DNA of 64,000 nucleotides, from NCBI GenBank assembly GCA_016841365.1, contig JAENZI010000015.1:1-64000 (forward strand). The letters are read 5' to 3'. A program made the position numbers and the translations under genes. The notes beneath the pieces were generated by a model that was not told where the DNA came from, searched no databases, and worked only from the letters and a program-made list of their open reading frames with translations. Of the stretch, positions 1,500 through 46,713 are shown one piece after another. Position 1 is the stretch's first letter. Every line of letters begins with the position of its first letter. This DNA comes from Anaerolineaceae bacterium (lineage in GTDB: Bacteria > Chloroflexota > Anaerolineae > Anaerolineales > Anaerolineaceae).

Positions 1500-4076
1500 T
1501 CAAATCACCTGAATTTGCGAGCCTTCAAGCGTCTTCTCCACCTCGATCCGGTTCGGGAAGGCTTCTTTAAGCTCCTCCAGGTGCGTAATCACCAAGATCT
1601 TTTCAAAATCATCCCGCACCAAATTGATCGCTTCCACCAACCGCTGCCGCCCCTGTGCATCCTGGCTGCCAAAGCCTTCATCAATCACCAGCGTTTGCAG
1701 CCGTGCCCCAGCCCGACGCGCCAGCACTTGCGAAAGCGCCAGCCGGATGGAGAAATTGATCCGGAATGCCTCTCCACCTGAAAACATCTCATAATCCCGC
1801 TCGCCCACACTATCGCTGATGACCATATCCAGCGTTTCCTTCATATCATCCCGGCTGGCATCTTTATATTCCCGCTGGGTCATGAAGTGGAACGACATCC
1901 GGCCGTTTGTCAGACGATCGAGCAGGTCGTTGGTGGTCTCTTCGATCTCGGGCAGTGCCTGTTCGATCAGCAGGGCAGGGATACCGTCTTTGCCAAAAGC
2001 TCGCTCAAGCTGTTTAAGGTCTGCGATGAGGTGTGTCTTTTCCTCCCGCTCGGCTGTCAATGCTGTTTTGCGCGCTTCTTGTGTCGCCAGCACAGACACC
2101 TTCTGCTGCGCTCCGCCAACCTCTTTGCGCAACAGGTTTTCTTTTTCCTGGATATCATGCAAGGCGGATTCAACCTCACCCAGGTCTGGCAGATCAGCCT
2201 GCGCTGCAGCCAATTTAGCCGCTGAGTCATCATGCATACGCGTCAGCTCGTCAATTTTCTCTTGCTGTTCAACGGACTGCGTCTCTAATCCTTCAATTTC
2301 ACGTTTGATTGGTGCAAGGGCTGCCTGCGCCTTCTCCAGTTTCCGTAAGGCTTCTTCGGTCTCCCTGCCCGCCTGCTCTGCCTGGCGTAATTTTTGGTGT
2401 GCATCGGTGTCATATCCCAACACCTCAAGCTCAGCCTCGATTTCTTTTAAGCGGGTACGCGCATCGGGTGCAAAAGCACCTTCAGCAAGTGCATTTGTGA
2501 TTTCTACCAGACGCATCGCGCCTTGCTTCTGCCAGGTTTGATCCTGCGCTTCAAACGCCTTCATCTTATTCGTGATCTGATCGACAAGCCGGTTAGCGTC
2601 TCGTAATTGTGTTTCCGCATCCTTGAGGTCGGCAAAGGCTGCACCCAACTCTTTGAGGCGGTTTTGGAAATTATCAAGCAGGTCTTTGTTCGCGTAATAC
2701 TTGTCACGGCGTTCTTCGCCCTCTTGATAATATTTCTTGATGAGTTCACTCCGATGGTCTTCCGAAAGCGGCTGATGACAAACCGGACACTCCGGCTCCT
2801 TTGCGGCTTCAAGCTGGTCAAGCCGGTTGCGCAGATCTTCCATCTCTTCCTTCAAACGCGGATTTTCGGCTTTGGCTTCCGCATGTTGCACCTGCAACTG
2901 CCTGATCTCTTCATCCAGTTGCTTTCTACGGGCAATCTTTTCTTCTGCTTCCACGATCTCTTGCTGGGCTGCGGATAAATCCTTTTCAAGACGTTCAATC
3001 TCTGCCCGCGCCTTTTCCAATTCCGATTGCTGCGTTTCAAGTCCCTGCTTCTCTTGAAAGAGCCGGGCTTCCTCTGCATGGATCATTTGCAGGGGTTCCT
3101 GCCGCAGCGCTTCGTGTTTATGGAATTGATCGGCAATCTCTTCCATTGCCGCTAATTCCTGCCGCATTTCCTGCCAATGCTGATAGGCTATTTTAATTTC
3201 GTCTGAGCTGGCAAGAATCTGATCATAGCTTTCTTTCTCAGCCCGCCGTTCTTCCAGGGTTGCCGTAGTCCGCTCATACATCTTCTGAGTATCCTCAAGC
3301 TGTGAGCGTAATGTCGCCAGCATTTTTTGCTGCTCTTCAAATGAAGCATACCATCGCTGTGCATTCTCAAGTTCTTTGGCGCGTGCCTGACGTTGGGCTT
3401 CCAGTTCACTCAGCCTGGTTTCCAATTCTGCCAGCCGCGCTTTACGCTGCGGGGCTTCATCCAGCTCACTCTGGATCTCACTTAAACGACCATCCAGTTC
3501 CCTGACTTCCTTCTCCTGTTCACGCCTGCGGACGCCAGCAGCCTCCCGGTATGATTCCCAAACCTCCAAACCTAAAATATTGCTCAAAATCCGCTTACGT
3601 TCTGCCGGGCGAGCGGTAGCAAACTGGTCGGCTTTGCCCTGCAAGAAGAAGGAAGCATTGGTGAAAGTGTCAAAATCCAGCTTGAGAGTATCTTCAATTT
3701 TCTTTTCAGTTTCACGTAAGGTGCGTTCGGTTAATGGTTTCCAGCGGTCTTCCTGCCCGGGCACTTTAGAAAGCATAAAGAACTCCACTGAAGAGGTCTT
3801 GCCGCGGGCGTTGGCACGCTGCACGCGGTAGCGGTTATTTTCATAATCAAAGTCGAACGTCACTTCTGCAGCCTTGACTGAAGGGTGATTGTTGATGATC
3901 GATTCATCCCGCTTGCGCGCCCGCCCAAATAAAGCCCATGTGATCGCATCCAGCAGGGCGCTCTTTCCGGCACCATTCTGCCCTGAAATACAGGCTAAAT
4001 CAAACCCCGTGAAGTCAAGTTCGACGGGTTTACGATAAGATAGAAAGCCTTCAATTCTGAGTTTTACAGGGATCAT
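1500..4076 (-). CDS. SbcC/Rad50-like SMC-family ATPase with zinc hook
   Basis: This 858-residue protein is the ATPase part of a DNA-end processing machine. The N-terminus has a Walker A motif GQNGAGKS at residues 32-39. A long coiled coil follows, broken near residue 430 by CPVCHQP, the CxxC zinc hook that joins two coiled-coil arms in Rad50 and SbcC. The second coil leads to the ABC signature FSGGE near residue 763 and Walker B LVIDEGFG near 795. Such proteins normally work with an Mre11/SbcD nuclease, which is not encoded next to it. Its start codon lies one base after the stop of the herA-like gene, so the two are translationally linked in an operon with nurA. It could be called sbcC or rad50; the HerA/NurA neighbourhood resembles the archaeal rad50 operon. 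Confidence 0.93.
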   Translation of the reverse strand: MIPVKLRIEGFLSYRKPVELDFTGFDLACISGQNGAGKSALLDAITWALFGRARKRDESIINNHPSVKAAEVTFDFDYENNRYRVQRANARGKTSSVEFFMLSKVPGQEDRWKPLTERTLRETEKKIEDTLKLDFDTFTNASFFLQGKADQFATARPAERKRILSNILGLEVWESYREAAGVRRREQEKEVRELDGRLSEIQSELDEAPQRKARLAELETRLSELEAQRQARAKELENAQRWYASFEEQQKMLATLRSQLEDTQKMYERTTATLEERRAEKESYDQILASSDEIKIAYQHWQEMRQELAAMEEIADQFHKHEALRQEPLQMIHAEEARLFQEKQGLETQQSELEKARAEIERLEKDLSAAQQEIVEAEEKIARRKQLDEEIRQLQVQHAEAKAENPRLKEEMEDLRNRLDQLEAAKEPECPVCHQPLSEDHRSELIKKYYQEGEERRDKYYANKDLLDNFQNRLKELGAAFADLKDAETQLRDANRLVDQITNKMKAFEAQDQTWQKQGAMRLVEITNALAEGAFAPDARTRLKEIEAELEVLGYDTDAHQKLRQAEQAGRETEEALRKLEKAQAALAPIKREIEGLETQSVEQQEKIDELTRMHDDSAAKLAAAQADLPDLGEVESALHDIQEKENLLRKEVGGAQQKVSVLATQEARKTALTAEREEKTHLIADLKQLERAFGKDGIPALLIEQALPEIEETTNDLLDRLTNGRMSFHFMTQREYKDASRDDMKETLDMVISDSVGERDYEMFSGGEAFRINFSIRLALSQVLARRAGARLQTLVIDEGFGSQDAQGRQRLVEAINLVRDDFEKILVITHLEELKEAFPNRIEVEKTLEGSQIQVI

Positions 4077-12909: not shown

Positions 12910-12930
12910 TTTATCAGATTCAATTCAATG

Positions 12931-13073
12931 ACCTTCGGGGCAGGGTGAGGGACTTCGTCCCAATTCCCGACCGGTGGTATTCCCCAGCCATGGGGCAGCC
13001 CACGAGCGCAAAATATTGCGCATGAAACGGTGAGATGCCGTTGCCGGCGGTTAAAGTCCGAATGAAAGAAGGT
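12931..13073 (+). promoter_or_regulatory. FMN riboswitch (RFN element)
   Basis: The conserved RFN blocks are all visible in order: CTTCGGGGCAGGGTGA, then AATTCCCGACCGG, CAGCCCACGAGCG, ACGGTGAGATGCCG and AAAGTCCGAATGAAAGAAGG. The closing helix P1 is ACCTTC (12931-12936) with GAAGGT (13068-13073). The RNA binds FMN and lowers expression of downstream genes. It is followed by a 6-bp hairpin (13077-13092), a terminator hairpin and the three-gene ABC importer, which points to riboflavin as the transported substrate. Confidence 0.95.
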
Positions 13074-13100
13074 GTTCGCATCATGCGATGCGTATTTCTG

Positions 13101-41952: not shown

Positions 41953-42942
41953 ATGAAAAAAGGCTGGAAAATTACACTCATTGTTCTGGGAATACTCCTG
42001 TTTGTTATCCTGGTGGGCCCTTTTTTGATCCCTGTGCCGCTCCTGGAGAACACCCAGCCGGTCAAAGCATTGGCAGACCCCGATAGCCGATTTGTGACCA
42101 TCAACGGCATCGAAGTCCACTATAAACAAGCAGGTTCTGGTGAACCGGTGTTCATCCTCTTACATGGGTTTGGCGCAAGCACCTTTTCCTGGGAAAGAGT
42201 GATGACACCGCTTTCAGCCTACGGCACGGTGATCGCCTATGACCGGCCAGCATTCGGGTTGACCGAACGCCCGCTTGCATGGGAGGAAGAAAACCCCTAC
42301 ACACAGGAAAGCAACATCAAGATCCTTGCAGGCTTGCTGGATGCAAAGGGCGCTGAACAAGCGATTCTGATTGGCAATTCCGCTGGCGGCACCCTGGCGA
42401 CCGCTTTTACCCTGGCTTATCCTGAGCGCGTGGCAGCGCTGATTGAGGTTGACGCAGCCATCTATCAAACCATGCCCGACTCTGCCATTTTATCCTGGCT
42501 CTTACAGACCCCGCAGATGGATCACATCGGATCGTTGATTGCACGTCAATTAGGCAGCGGACGAGGTGACGAATTTTTGCGCAATGCTTACCACAATCCC
42601 GCACTGCTCGATGCCAACCCGGAAATCATCGAGGGTTACCGCAAGCCCTTAACGGCGGAAAATTGGGATCGCGCTCTGTGGGAATTTACCCGGGCGTCCC
42701 AACCCCCCGGGTTAGCCGACCGACTGGATGAGATTCGGGTGCCAACCCTGGTGATCACCGGGGATGATGACCGCATTGTGCCCACAGAATACAGCCTGAG
42801 GTTGGCAGAAGACATCCCCAACGCACAACTGGTGGTCATTGAGAACTGCGGTCACATGCCGCAGGAAGAATGCTCGATAGAATTTATGCAAGCCATAGAT
42901 GAGTTTTTAGACAATTTAATGGAGGTAAACAATGAGCAATAA
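41953..42942 (+). CDS. Membrane-anchored alpha/beta hydrolase
   Basis: The 329-residue protein starts with a membrane anchor (residues about 6-24) and carries an alpha/beta hydrolase fold. The oxyanion segment is LLHGFGAST, the nucleophile serine is in IGNSAGGTLATAF near residue 138, the aspartate in VITGDDDRIVP and the histidine in ENCGHMPQEE. It is of the epoxide hydrolase/haloperoxidase-like type; the substrate is unknown. A ribosome binding site AGGAG precedes the ATG. Its last 11 bases overlap the start of the UGA-containing peroxiredoxin gene. Confidence 0.87.
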   Translation: MKKGWKITLIVLGILLFVILVGPFLIPVPLLENTQPVKALADPDSRFVTINGIEVHYKQAGSGEPVFILLHGFGASTFSWERVMTPLSAYGTVIAYDRPAFGLTERPLAWEEENPYTQESNIKILAGLLDAKGAEQAILIGNSAGGTLATAFTLAYPERVAALIEVDAAIYQTMPDSAILSWLLQTPQMDHIGSLIARQLGSGRGDEFLRNAYHNPALLDANPEIIEGYRKPLTAENWDRALWEFTRASQPPGLADRLDEIRVPTLVITGDDDRIVPTEYSLRLAEDIPNAQLVVIENCGHMPQEECSIEFMQAIDEFLDNLMEVNNEQ

Positions 42943-43405
42943 CCGCATCAACCGGGGCGATGCCCCGCCTGATTTCACCCTTCAAGATACATCCGGCGAA
43001 GAGATCACCTTATCAAGTTTCAAAGGCGAAAAACTGGTTTATCTTGTCTTCAACCGCGGGTTTTCCTGACCATTCTGCCGCAGGCATATGGCGCAGTTGC
43101 GCCAGGACTTTGATAAATTTACTGCTCAGGACACCGCCGTGATCGCTGTCGGACCGGATAGCCAAAGTGCCTTTGAGGATTTCTGGCAGAAGGAAGAGAT
43201 ACCCTTCATTGGTTTGGCCGACCCGGATCATACTGTGGCAAAACAATACGATCAGGAAGTGAACTTATTAAAATTTGGCCGGATCCCAGCACAATTCATC
43301 ATCAACAAGCAGGGCATCGTGCAATATGCACATTATTCCTCCTCTATGTCGGATATTCCGGAAAACGAAGAAATCCTTGAGATCCTGAAAATGATGAACA
43401 CATAG
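42932..43405 (+). CDS. Peroxiredoxin-like selenoprotein with in-frame UGA (UxxC)
   Basis: One frame runs from ATG 42932 to the stop at 43405 except for TGA at 43067-43069 (codon 46). Before it the translation reads APPDFTLQDTSGEEITLSSF and LVYLVFNRGFS, after it PFCRRHMAQLRQDF, then GLADPDHTVAKQYDQEVNLL. This is a continuous AhpC/TSA-type peroxiredoxin-like protein of 157 residues, and the UGA sits exactly at the catalytic first cysteine of the CPFC motif. Reading UGA as selenocysteine gives UPFC. GGAGGT (42920-42925) supports the start. A SECIS-like hairpin follows at 43089-43104. UxxC peroxiredoxin-like selenoproteins are known in other bacteria. A nonsense mutation or base-call error at a TGC codon is the alternative; the intact downstream sequence argues against old decay. 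Confidence 0.85.
43089..43104 (+). promoter_or_regulatory. Bacterial SECIS-like stem-loop
   Basis: TGGCGC (43089-43094) pairs perfectly with GCGCCA (43099-43104) around the four-base loop AGTT. The loop starts 25 bases after the UGA and has a G among its first two bases, both properties described for bacterial SECIS elements recognised by SelB. Confidence 0.7.
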
Positions 43406-43449
43406 AATCAACCGCATTTTCAATTTTATTGGTATTTATTGGTGAAAAA

Positions 43450-44142
43450 ATGAATAATCACATTCTTATCGCAGGCGCTACCGGGCGTACTGGTCGAATA
43501 ATCGTCCAGAAATTACTTGCACAGGGCAAAAAACCGCACCTGCTGGTGCGTGACCTTTCTGAAGCGAAAGCTTTATTCGGTGATTCACCTATCTACTTCC
43601 AGAGTGATGTGCGCGAACCGAATACACTCTCCCCGGCTATGACCGAAGTGGATACCGTCATTTCTGCTATTGGTACACGCACCCCGGTCGGCAAGAACTG
43701 CCCCAAGCATGTCGATTATGAAGGCGTGGCGAACCTGGTGCACGTCGCAAAAGCGAACGGCATTCGGCGCTTTATCCTGATATCGTCCATCGCTGTCACC
43801 CGCCCAGACCACCCATTGAATTGTTTTGGCCGGATCCTTGACTGGAAGAAAAAGGGGGAAGAAGTATTAAGACAAAGCGGTTTGGATTATGCCATCATCC
43901 GGCCAGGCGGCTTACTCAACACACCTGGCGGTAACTGCACGCTGATCGTTGACCAGGGTGACCGGCTGTCTGGCACCATCAGCCGTGAAGATGTTGCTGA
44001 GATTTGCCTGATGGCTGCACACTACCCGCAACCACTCCAAGTGACCTTCGAGGTCATCCAATCTGAACATCCCAGCAAGAATGTCTGTATGCCCGCGCTT
44101 GAGACCCTCACCATGGATGCATCAGACTCGGGTTTCGCATAA
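43450..44142 (+). CDS. NAD(P)-binding protein, SDR/NmrA-like
   Basis: The 230-residue protein has the atypical SDR cofactor motif ILIAGATGRTGRIIVQKLL at the N-terminus, DTVISAIGTRTPVGKN near residue 68 and FILISSIAVTRP near residue 110. YAIIRPGGLLNTPGG is typical of the NAD(P)H-binding DUF2867/YwnB group. No Tyr-xxx-Lys catalytic pair is certain, so an oxidoreductase or redox-sensing role is open. ATG 43450 gives the normal family N-terminus; the frame extends a few codons upstream. It follows the peroxiredoxin-like gene in the same direction, which hints at a stress-related set. Confidence 0.85.
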   Translation: MNNHILIAGATGRTGRIIVQKLLAQGKKPHLLVRDLSEAKALFGDSPIYFQSDVREPNTLSPAMTEVDTVISAIGTRTPVGKNCPKHVDYEGVANLVHVAKANGIRRFILISSIAVTRPDHPLNCFGRILDWKKKGEEVLRQSGLDYAIIRPGGLLNTPGGNCTLIVDQGDRLSGTISREDVAEICLMAAHYPQPLQVTFEVIQSEHPSKNVCMPALETLTMDASDSGFA

Positions 44143-44193: not shown

Positions 44194-46368
44194 TTATTCT
44201 TTGAAACGCAGCGCCCGCATGCCGTTCAATGTCACGATCAGAGATACACCCATATCCGCTAAAACCGCCATCCACAACGGCGCATAACCTAAAAAGGCAA
44301 TTACAGCCACCAACAGCTTGCTGCCCAGGCTGAAGATGATATTCTGTCGAATCAGGCGGTTGGCAAAACGCGAAAGCTTGATGGCGAAGGGCAGTTTATC
44401 AAGGTTGGCTGCCATCAGCACCACATCGGCCGTAGCCATCGCCTGCGCGCGCCCGCTGCCGCCAACAGCAATCCCTAAATCTGCGGCTGCCAGGGCGGGT
44501 GTGTCATTGATCCCATCTCCAACCATAGCCACCGCGCCAAATTGATCACGCAAACTGATAACAGCATCCTGTTTATCGCCCGGCAGCAAATTCGCCCGGA
44601 CATTTTCCATCCCAACTGACTTTCCGATCGCCGCAGCAACGGCAGCATTATCGCCGGTCAGCATCACCGTGTGCTTGTGCATCTCATTGAGTGCTTCAAC
44701 CACGGCTTTTGAATCGTCCCGGGGCTGATCAGCCACTGCCATAAACCCCCGCACCCGTTGACCATCGCACACCAGCATGGCTGTTTTGCCCTCGGATTCC
44801 GCCTGGTCGACCCATTCATTCACTTCAGAGGGGATGTGATGTTCGGCCTCAAATAGTCTTCGGCTGCCGATGGTCATCTTCTCGCCATCAATGATGCCCT
44901 CCACCCCCAGTCCGCCCCGCGTGGTCAGATTTTGGGCGGGGGCATAGCGGTCTGTCACCCCGCGCCATTCTGCTTCTTCGATGATTGCTTGTGCCAATGG
45001 GTGGTTGCTGTGACGCTCCAGTGCATAAGCCAGCGCCACCATGTCATCGCAACTTTCGCAGGCCTCTTCTCCATGGCATTCCAAACTGCGGCAATCCACC
45101 ACTTTTGGTTCCCCTTTTGTCAGCGTGCCGGTTTTATCGAAGGCAAATGCCTTGATGCGGGAAAGCGCTTCGACAAAGATCCCGCCCTTGAATAAGACAC
45201 CCTCCCGAGCGGCTTTGGTCAGGCTGGCAACCATTGTGACCGGCGTTGAGATCACCAGGGCGCATGGGCAGCTGATCACCAACAGCACCAGGGCACGGTG
45301 CAGCCAACCGCGCGTCCCGTCTGCGGTGTTGAAGAACGGTTCGCCGAATAAAAGCGGTGGAACCGATGCCATCAGTACTGCAAAAATCACCATTGCAGGC
45401 GTGTAATATTTCGCAAATTTCTCAATAAATTTTTGACTGCGCGAGCGGCGGGACTGTGCTTCCGTCACCATTTCAATGATTCGGTGGAGGGTACTATCGA
45501 CCACCAGCCGGTTGACCTCTACAATTAACTGACCATTGCCGTTGATTGTGCCGCTGAAGACTTCATCGCCCTCGTCCTTCCACACGGGTAGGCTCTCACC
45601 CGTAATCGGTGCCTGGTTGATATCGCTCTGGCCTTCGAGAATGATGCCATCCAGCGGGATCCGGTCGCCTGGTCGGACCAGGATCCGATCACCAATATTG
45701 AGGTGCTCAACGGGCACCAGGGATTCATGTCCGTTTTCGAGCTTAACCGCTTTTGAAGACGCCAAAGCCGCCAACCCAGAAAGCGCTCCACGGGCACGAG
45801 CGTTGGTGAAACCCTCTAAGGCTTCAGCCAGGTCAAACAGCAAGATCAACGAGGCTGCCTCGGCATACTCACCGATCACCACCGCGCCAATCCCGGCAAT
45901 TGTCATCAAGAAGTTGATATTAAATGTGTGGTTGATCCACAGGGTCATCAACCCATTGCGGGCGATCGGCCAACCAGCCAGCACCAATGCGCCGATCTGC
46001 AAACTAACCACCGCCCAGTTTGGAACGCCAACCCAACCCAAAACCAGCGAAATCAGCACGATCCCGCCAGCGATCAGAGCCATTTGCGTTTCAACTTGCT
46101 GGATCAGGTAACGCCAGAAACCTACCAGTGCATTGGGTTCATTTTCAGGCGCTAACTTCGTTTGATCATGATCATCGACGCCATATCCCAGTGCGCTGAT
46201 CAGTTTTCGAACCTCACTCTCATCCACATCGCCGCGCACGGTCAGCATGCCATCAAAGAAGTTGAGCTTTGCATCATTAACATTTTTCATGGATGCGACA
46301 GAGGATTCCAATCCTTTTGCGCAATCCATACAATCCAAACCAGTAATTTTCAGTTGTTTTTCCATCAT
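44194..46368 (-). CDS. P1B-type heavy-metal exporting ATPase (Zn/Cd/Pb type)
   Basis: The 724-residue pump exports divalent soft metals. The N-terminal heavy-metal domain has GLDCMDCAKGLE with the CxxC metal site. Eight membrane helices include the CPC motif in VISCPCALVIS near residue 377. The phosphorylation site is FAFDKTGTLTKGEP near residue 415, TGES is present in the actuator domain, and GDGINDTPALAAADLG closes the P domain. A cysteine/histidine-rich insertion (CRSLECHGEEACESC) follows the phosphorylation site. The DMGVSL segment in the last helix is that of ZntA-like pumps. The ArsR-type repressor is encoded 15 bases upstream, which implies metal-induced expression. Confidence 0.94.
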   Translation of the reverse strand: MMEKQLKITGLDCMDCAKGLESSVASMKNVNDAKLNFFDGMLTVRGDVDESEVRKLISALGYGVDDHDQTKLAPENEPNALVGFWRYLIQQVETQMALIAGGIVLISLVLGWVGVPNWAVVSLQIGALVLAGWPIARNGLMTLWINHTFNINFLMTIAGIGAVVIGEYAEAASLILLFDLAEALEGFTNARARGALSGLAALASSKAVKLENGHESLVPVEHLNIGDRILVRPGDRIPLDGIILEGQSDINQAPITGESLPVWKDEGDEVFSGTINGNGQLIVEVNRLVVDSTLHRIIEMVTEAQSRRSRSQKFIEKFAKYYTPAMVIFAVLMASVPPLLFGEPFFNTADGTRGWLHRALVLLVISCPCALVISTPVTMVASLTKAAREGVLFKGGIFVEALSRIKAFAFDKTGTLTKGEPKVVDCRSLECHGEEACESCDDMVALAYALERHSNHPLAQAIIEEAEWRGVTDRYAPAQNLTTRGGLGVEGIIDGEKMTIGSRRLFEAEHHIPSEVNEWVDQAESEGKTAMLVCDGQRVRGFMAVADQPRDDSKAVVEALNEMHKHTVMLTGDNAAVAAAIGKSVGMENVRANLLPGDKQDAVISLRDQFGAVAMVGDGINDTPALAAADLGIAVGGSGRAQAMATADVVLMAANLDKLPFAIKLSRFANRLIRQNIIFSLGSKLLVAVIAFLGYAPLWMAVLADMGVSLIVTLNGMRALRFKE

Positions 46369-46383
46369 ACCAATAAAGAAACC

Positions 46384-46713
46384 TCAATCGTATAGGATAT
46401 GCTCAAATGTGCGGACAAGGATCTCGCGCACATGGTCGTCCGCCAGGGAGTAGAAAACCTCCCGGCCGTCTTTGTGATAGCGAACGATATCCATCGCCCG
46501 CAATATCCGCAGTTGATGCGATACGGCACTTTGGGAGACCGCTAAATGGTCTGCCAGGTCACCCACGCTGCGTTCACCATCAAACAACAAAGCCAGAATC
46601 CGCAAGCGGGTCGGGTCTGCCAGCGCTTTGTAAATCTCTGCCATGGCAGCCACCGTCTCTTCTGAAAGAAGATCGGGGTTTATATGTGTTAATGTGATCG
46701 TTTCGTGCATCAT
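46384..46713 (-). CDS. ArsR/SmtB-family metal-responsive repressor
   Basis: The 109-residue winged-helix repressor would release DNA when Zn, Cd or Pb binds. The recognition helix is around LADHLAVSQSAVSHQLRILR near residues 55-75. The C-terminal helix has DDHVREILVRTFEH, which matches the alpha-5 zinc site of SmtB (Asp, His two later and His eleven after that). There is no clear N-terminal cysteine site. AAGGAT serves as ribosome binding site. A 12-2-12 operator and promoter are directly upstream, and the pump gene follows, so it forms an autoregulated metal-resistance operon. Confidence 0.93.
   Translation of the reverse strand: MMHETITLTHINPDLLSEETVAAMAEIYKALADPTRLRILALLFDGERSVGDLADHLAVSQSAVSHQLRILRAMDIVRYHKDGREVFYSLADDHVREILVRTFEHILYD

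Follow-up and report, generated by a model that had tools for sequence, protein, structure and literature searches.

Does an in-frame TGA within an otherwise intact bacterial gene mark a broken reading frame, or does it specify selenocysteine (Sec)? The question is raised by a gene of an Anaerolineaceae bacterium lying in a window of 64,000 nucleotides, the whole stretch of DNA that was analysed. The letters, read directly, give a single frame from ATG 42932-42934 to TAG 43403-43405 whose sole interruption is a TGA at 43067-43069 (codon 46), just as the initial annotation had described it, and read-through yields a product of 157 residues with this one internal TGA. That annotation had interpreted the gene as a peroxiredoxin-like selenoprotein with UGA at the catalytic cysteine. 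In this study, the interpretation as a selenoprotein gains support from the Sec machinery of the genome, from alignment and from the fit of a selenocysteine insertion (SECIS) hairpin. The features concerned, and others in the window, are collected in Table 1.

Table 1. Features of the locus and its surroundings, in window coordinates
Feature	Position	Strand	Remarks
FMN riboswitch	12927-13077	+	83.3 bits; sole Rfam match at gathering thresholds
Alpha/beta hydrolase gene	41953-42942	+	end overlaps the start of the selenoprotein gene by 11 bases
Shine-Dalgarno sequence GGAGG	42921-42925	+	six bases 5' of the ATG; direct reading
Probable Prx-fold UxxC selenoprotein gene	42932-43405	+	157 residues including Sec46; stop TAG
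Predicted UGA selenocysteine codon 46	43067-43069	+	conserved TGA and Sec machinery
TGC codon of Cys49	43076-43078	+	partner of Sec46 in UPFC
Predicted bacterial SECIS hairpin	43089-43104	+	6-bp stem; loop AGTT at 43095-43098
NAD(P)H-binding (NmrA-like) gene	43429-44142	+	downstream; start more likely ATG 43450
Heavy-metal P-type ATPase gene	44194-46368	-	adjoins the ArsR-family gene
ArsR-family regulator gene	46384-46713	-	adjoins the ATPase gene

The good ribosome binding site noted earlier is indeed present ahead of the first ATG, and the coding sequence is continuous on both sides of the TGA: the Pfam AhpC-TSA domain (PF00578) matches the read-through protein over residues 9-132 at 2.9e-28, with a score of 98.8 bits that passes the gathering cut-off of 26. 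Residues 46-49 form the motif UPFC, in which U46 and C49 are the only Cys/Sec residues of the protein and C49 its only cysteine. The internal ATG at 43088, which the initial annotation expected a standard caller to choose, does open an ORF of 105 amino acids. That translation starts there, and that the product is a 105-residue protein lacking the active site, is scarcely credible even though the standard ORF opens at this ATG, since the upstream part and a UPFC-type motif are conserved in frame among relatives, 42 of 123 of which have TTG, CTG, CTC or TTA in place of the ATG. Ordinary ORF calling thus drops the active site of the selenoprotein gene.

Relatives were sought in 396 genomes of the class Anaerolineae at a match threshold of E<=1e-20. 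Matches occurred in 126 genomes, about a third of the sample; of the 134 matches listed, 130 were read at codon 46, the remaining four lying wholly downstream of it. The codon is TGA in 128 of these 130 loci, including two at contig edges (L149 and L150), and by hand count 122 of the 126 matching genomes contributed a locus with TGA to this reading. One of the two exceptions (L148, genome G060) is an unrelated peroxiredoxin. The other, L140 of genome G280, which belongs to the order of the source genome, has TGC at this codon, giving CPFC, and is the sole full-length non-TGA relative among those read; Cys forms are therefore rare among close class relatives (1 TGC against 128 TGA in 130 loci). 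When the protein is aligned with a Cys form, Sec46 falls on the first Cys of CPFC, as the initial annotation had anticipated. Across 126 TGA loci the motif is UPFC in 66, UPYC in 40, UPHC in 14 and UGVC in 2, with UMYC, URHC, UPFA and UVFR found at one locus each. In the UPFA and UVFR members (L145 and L152), both TGA-bearing, the second Cys is gone or the gene is decaying; L145 keeps Sec without the second Cys. A second, divergent TGA-bearing copy (L144, UPHC, 39% identity) is present on contig C5 of a same-genus genome, G243.

Conservation extends to the phylum outside the class, where TGA occupies codon 46 in 17 of 17 loci, these having been chosen because a TGA was already flagged, with weaker unflagged matches left out. 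A weak relative at positions 81451-81900 of contig C7 in genome G576 carries two in-frame TGA codons and is possibly a UxxU form.

Errors in draft assemblies can create a lone in-frame stop, and the TGA might accordingly have arisen through faulty sequencing or through a nonsense mutation as a peroxiredoxin-like gene decays. Breaks elsewhere in the gene, against which the initial annotation had cautioned, are rare among relatives: a second internal stop occurs in 2 of the 134 listed matches, those of G097 and G153, and these two speak for the idea. Set against it are the recurrence of TGA at this position in 128 of 130 class loci, its presence in all 17 phylum loci picked for a flagged TGA, and the pattern of substitution. 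Measured against L025, dN and dS are 0.41 and 2.8 before the TGA and 0.23 and 4.3 after it, and of 12 comparisons dS is saturated in 8; in the 4 that allow dS to be estimated, dN is the lower of the two. Error or decay is left with a negligible probability.

The initial annotation had made its reading depend on the presence of Sec machinery, and the source genome (19 contigs, 98% complete) contains selA, selB, selC and selD. ARAGORN places tRNA-Sec, with anticodon tca, on contig C14; selA (531 bits, C19), selB (372 bits, C11) and two selD genes (402 and 327 bits) all score above cut-off. One selD has an in-frame TGA within a CAGU motif, and the other is part of a 740-residue fusion protein that joins a class-V aminotransferase resembling cysteine desulfurases to a SelD of the Cys form. 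The fusion lies at L022:304-2526 on C14, separate from the Sec-form SelD (CxxU, L023), which is encoded at another place in the genome. In Geobacter sp. FRC-32, a fusion of NifS with SelD is reported (PMC2398784). A tRNA-Sec family search returned six weaker matches besides the C14 gene, one of them above cut-off (C4:20740). At the locus of this match ARAGORN reads two tRNA-Ser genes; four of the weaker matches lie elsewhere. In the window itself, ARAGORN found no tRNA.

Among the 396 class genomes, 315 have a selA above cut-off; of the 126 with a match, 115 do (counted by eye). G280, the genome of the TGC locus, has a best selA match of 5.1e-68, among the 24 below cut-off (also counted by eye), which fits its Cys form. 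Nine TGA-form genomes likewise have no selA above cut-off (G108, G128, G180, G184, G225, G302, G330, G335 and G353); their assemblies run to between 200 and 1110 contigs, and loss of selA is therefore not established in them.

It could also be supposed that the UGA is translated through general suppression or reassignment, as Trp or another residue, rather than as Sec. Nothing found in the analysis supports this. Within the window, 12 of 35 long open stretches end in TGA, which is thus not generally reassigned; it also ends 47 of 130 related open frames. The Sec system is complete, and the only full-length non-TGA relative among those read has Cys at this codon. We regard this explanation as very improbable, if marginally less so than error or decay.

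A further sign of Sec insertion is carried by the RNA downstream of the TGA. The published bSECIS model, as set out in the legend to Fig. 2 of PMC13188914, comprises a stem of 4-16 bp, a loop of 3-9 nt with G among its first two nucleotides, a distance of 16-37 nt from the UGA and an MFE <= -7.5. The hairpin at 43089-43104 fits this model, with 6 bp, loop AGTT, a distance of 25 nt and -10.0 kcal/mol. The stem (TGGCGC/GCGCCA) and loop are as first reported; the distance of 25 bases after the TGA, originally assigned to the hairpin, is that of the apical loop, and the stem starts 19 bases after. A conforming hairpin occurs in 102 of 126 relatives, compared with 9.4% of within-gene synonymous shuffles, and is found nowhere in the remaining 24. 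At the position of the hairpin itself, 83 of the 126 agree with the model, 26 have a weaker stem (at least 4 bp) and 17 have none. Outside the class, 16 of the 17 flagged phylum loci satisfy the model.

Further comparison with the shuffles (n=123) showed that relatives retain 5.60 of the 6 stem pairs against 4.45, and that the 48 bases following the TGA fold with an MFE of -14.9, compared with -11.7. Wobble bases in the stem are held as well, Ala being encoded by GCG in 116 of 123 sequences against 30% elsewhere in the same genes, and Leu by TTG in 107 of 123 against 19%; the protein does not need these bases. AGTT is the loop sequence of 102 of 123, and of 79 of the 95 sequences left once the set was thinned at 75% identity. 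Compensatory changes on both sides affect 5 of the 6 pairs (22 cells, 143 sequences). When covariation was compared with 500 shuffles, none reached the observed value for two pairs, and 1, 1 and 11 did so for the other three, figures that are not strict probabilities because the sequences are related. A chance origin of the pattern is excluded, given TGA in 128 of 130 loci and a hairpin beyond that of synonymous shuffles. The conserved, covarying hairpin provides a well-defined Chloroflexota SECIS for annotation.

Cys forms were the subject of a separate contig scan that used one pattern requiring Cys and was by design blind to Sec forms. It gave 8 relatives, of which L154, L155 and L156 are close, and all three of these fail the bSECIS model. 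L155, from a Bacillota MAG (2809-3909), has two AhpC-TSA stretches in one protein, where a CPYC domain precedes one of Prx type, a layout which suggests that the CxxC domain may serve a peroxiredoxin. The conserved UGA, the Sec machinery and a covarying SECIS that is absent from the three close Cys forms together identify the gene as that of a selenoprotein. We conclude with high confidence that it encodes a Sec-containing thiol oxidoreductase of peroxiredoxin (Prx) fold, Sec presumably being inserted at the UGA.

What role Sec46 plays is a separate matter. AlphaFold models residues 8-157 with confidence (pLDDT 94.6), and the best Foldseek matches of the model are Bcp/AhpE peroxiredoxins and ResA. 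In sequence alignment to ResA 3c71, U46 and C49 fall on the CxxC motif, with U46 at the first Cys. In alignment to peroxiredoxin 2ywn, C49 falls instead on the Cys of TxxC, which we take to be the peroxidatic Cys of that protein. The classical peroxiredoxin motif is PxxxTxxC. Neither this nor its Sec counterpart is present in the protein (a TxxU form appears in a portion of PMC13188914), its sequence RGFSUPFC being RxxxUxxC. The replacement of PxxxTxxC by RxxxUxxC makes a UxxC selenol/thiol oxidoreductase the best reading. Lacking PxxxTxxC, the protein is not a classical peroxiredoxin, and by alignment with ResA it places Sec at the first Cys position of the thioredoxin type. The "catalytic cysteine" of the initial annotation is thus retained in the thioredoxin/ResA sense, U46 lying on the first Cys of ResA, and not in the peroxiredoxin sense, as it is C49 that aligns with the TxxC Cys of 2ywn.

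The alignment of Cys49 with that Cys, and the presence of Bcp and AhpE among the best fold matches, allow a different division of labor in a true selenoprotein: Cys49 would be peroxidatic, as in classical peroxiredoxins, and Sec46 a resolving partner or a neighbor that tunes its pKa. This runs counter to RxxxUxxC standing in place of PxxxTxxC, to L145, which lacks Cys49 and yet retains Sec, and to the near-universal Sec at position 46, a pattern that points to the selenol as the group making the attack. We consider it unlikely, though far less remote than any explanation that denies Sec insertion.

For the preferred reading, a UxxC oxidoreductase with an attacking selenol, the following mechanism is proposed. 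SelB with Sec-tRNA(Sec) would bind the hairpin, Sec would be inserted at the UGA, and translation would proceed to the TAG ending at 43405. Sec46 and Cys49 would form the redox pair of UPFC, probably cycling through an intramolecular selenenylsulfide. Sec46 would probably attack a peroxide, a disulfide or another oxidised substrate, and a thioredoxin-like donor would then restore it.

The gene neighborhood offers a hint as to function. Of 29 loci examined in relatives, 8 have a homologue of the overlapping alpha/beta hydrolase immediately upstream and a ninth (L042) has one no more than 1.5 kb away, some loci being cut by contig ends. Cys forms L154 and L155 are also downstream of alpha/beta hydrolase genes, of other subfamilies. 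This recurrence in gene order may hint at a functional link with the selenoprotein. A viral scan made with the neighboring hydrolase found no relative. The NmrA-like gene stands beside that of the selenoprotein at 2 of the 32 loci searched for it, and these two come from the same genus. Speculatively, these proteins may constitute a distinct, nearly all-Sec clade of Prx-fold UxxC proteins across Chloroflexota, in which selenium is near-indispensable and Cys forms are possibly reversions that have shed the SECIS; the partner would be the alpha/beta hydrolase of the gene pair, and the substrate possibly an ester- or acyl-linked oxidised metabolite rather than a generic peroxide. We hold this composite picture to be possible but on balance doubtful. 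A clade so persistent in Sec is a good test of the benefit of selenium over sulfur.

Comparison with known systems places the protein among several related families. Searched alone, the query reached no NCBIfam model above its cut-off; the other 22 aligned members were assessed by E-value. SelL proteins carry a UxxU motif. The best NCBIfam match of the query, and a match of 23 of 23 aligned members at E<=1e-6, is the model of SelL-related redox proteins (NF040769); it differs in that the query has UxxC and, at 79.5-79.8 bits over positions 4-98 of 173, misses the cut-off of 120. ResA/TlpA thiol-disulfide oxidoreductases share the CxxC position of U46 and Cys49 and the fold, with a TM score (query) of about 0.75-0.81 for ResA, but the ResA cut-off is missed (50.8 against 170 bits). 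Bcp/PrxQ and AhpE peroxiredoxins are the best fold matches and belong to the same Pfam family, but the query lacks their PxxxTxxC, and its 57.1 bits fall short of the 140 required by the thiol-peroxidase model.

A literature search for UPFC with selenocysteine found nothing, and the abstract openings of the listed papers on selenoproteins of Chloroflexi, Chloroflexota or Anaerolineae contain no mention of this family. The closest known relatives are the Prx-like UxxC/UxxU selenoproteins ("Prx-like 1"), which have the same Pfam domain, the UxxC motif and the same expected redox role, as described in PMC13188914, PMC9312934, PMC2398784, PMC1088965 and PMC1794560. Prx-like UxxC selenoproteins were listed already in 2005 (in part of PMC1088965), and Prx-like thiol:disulfide oxidoreductases with PF00578 and UxxC/UxxU stand in current tables (excerpts of PMC13188914 and PMC9312934). 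The GOS study, in the portion of PMC2398784 concerned, counts 2,740 Cys homologues and 225 Sec forms of Prx-like 1; this mostly Cys family contrasts with the 128 of 130 class loci that are TGA here, the two counts using different thresholds. On domain and motif, we assign the protein to this known Prx-like UxxC kind, whose published representative is WP_010940744.1.
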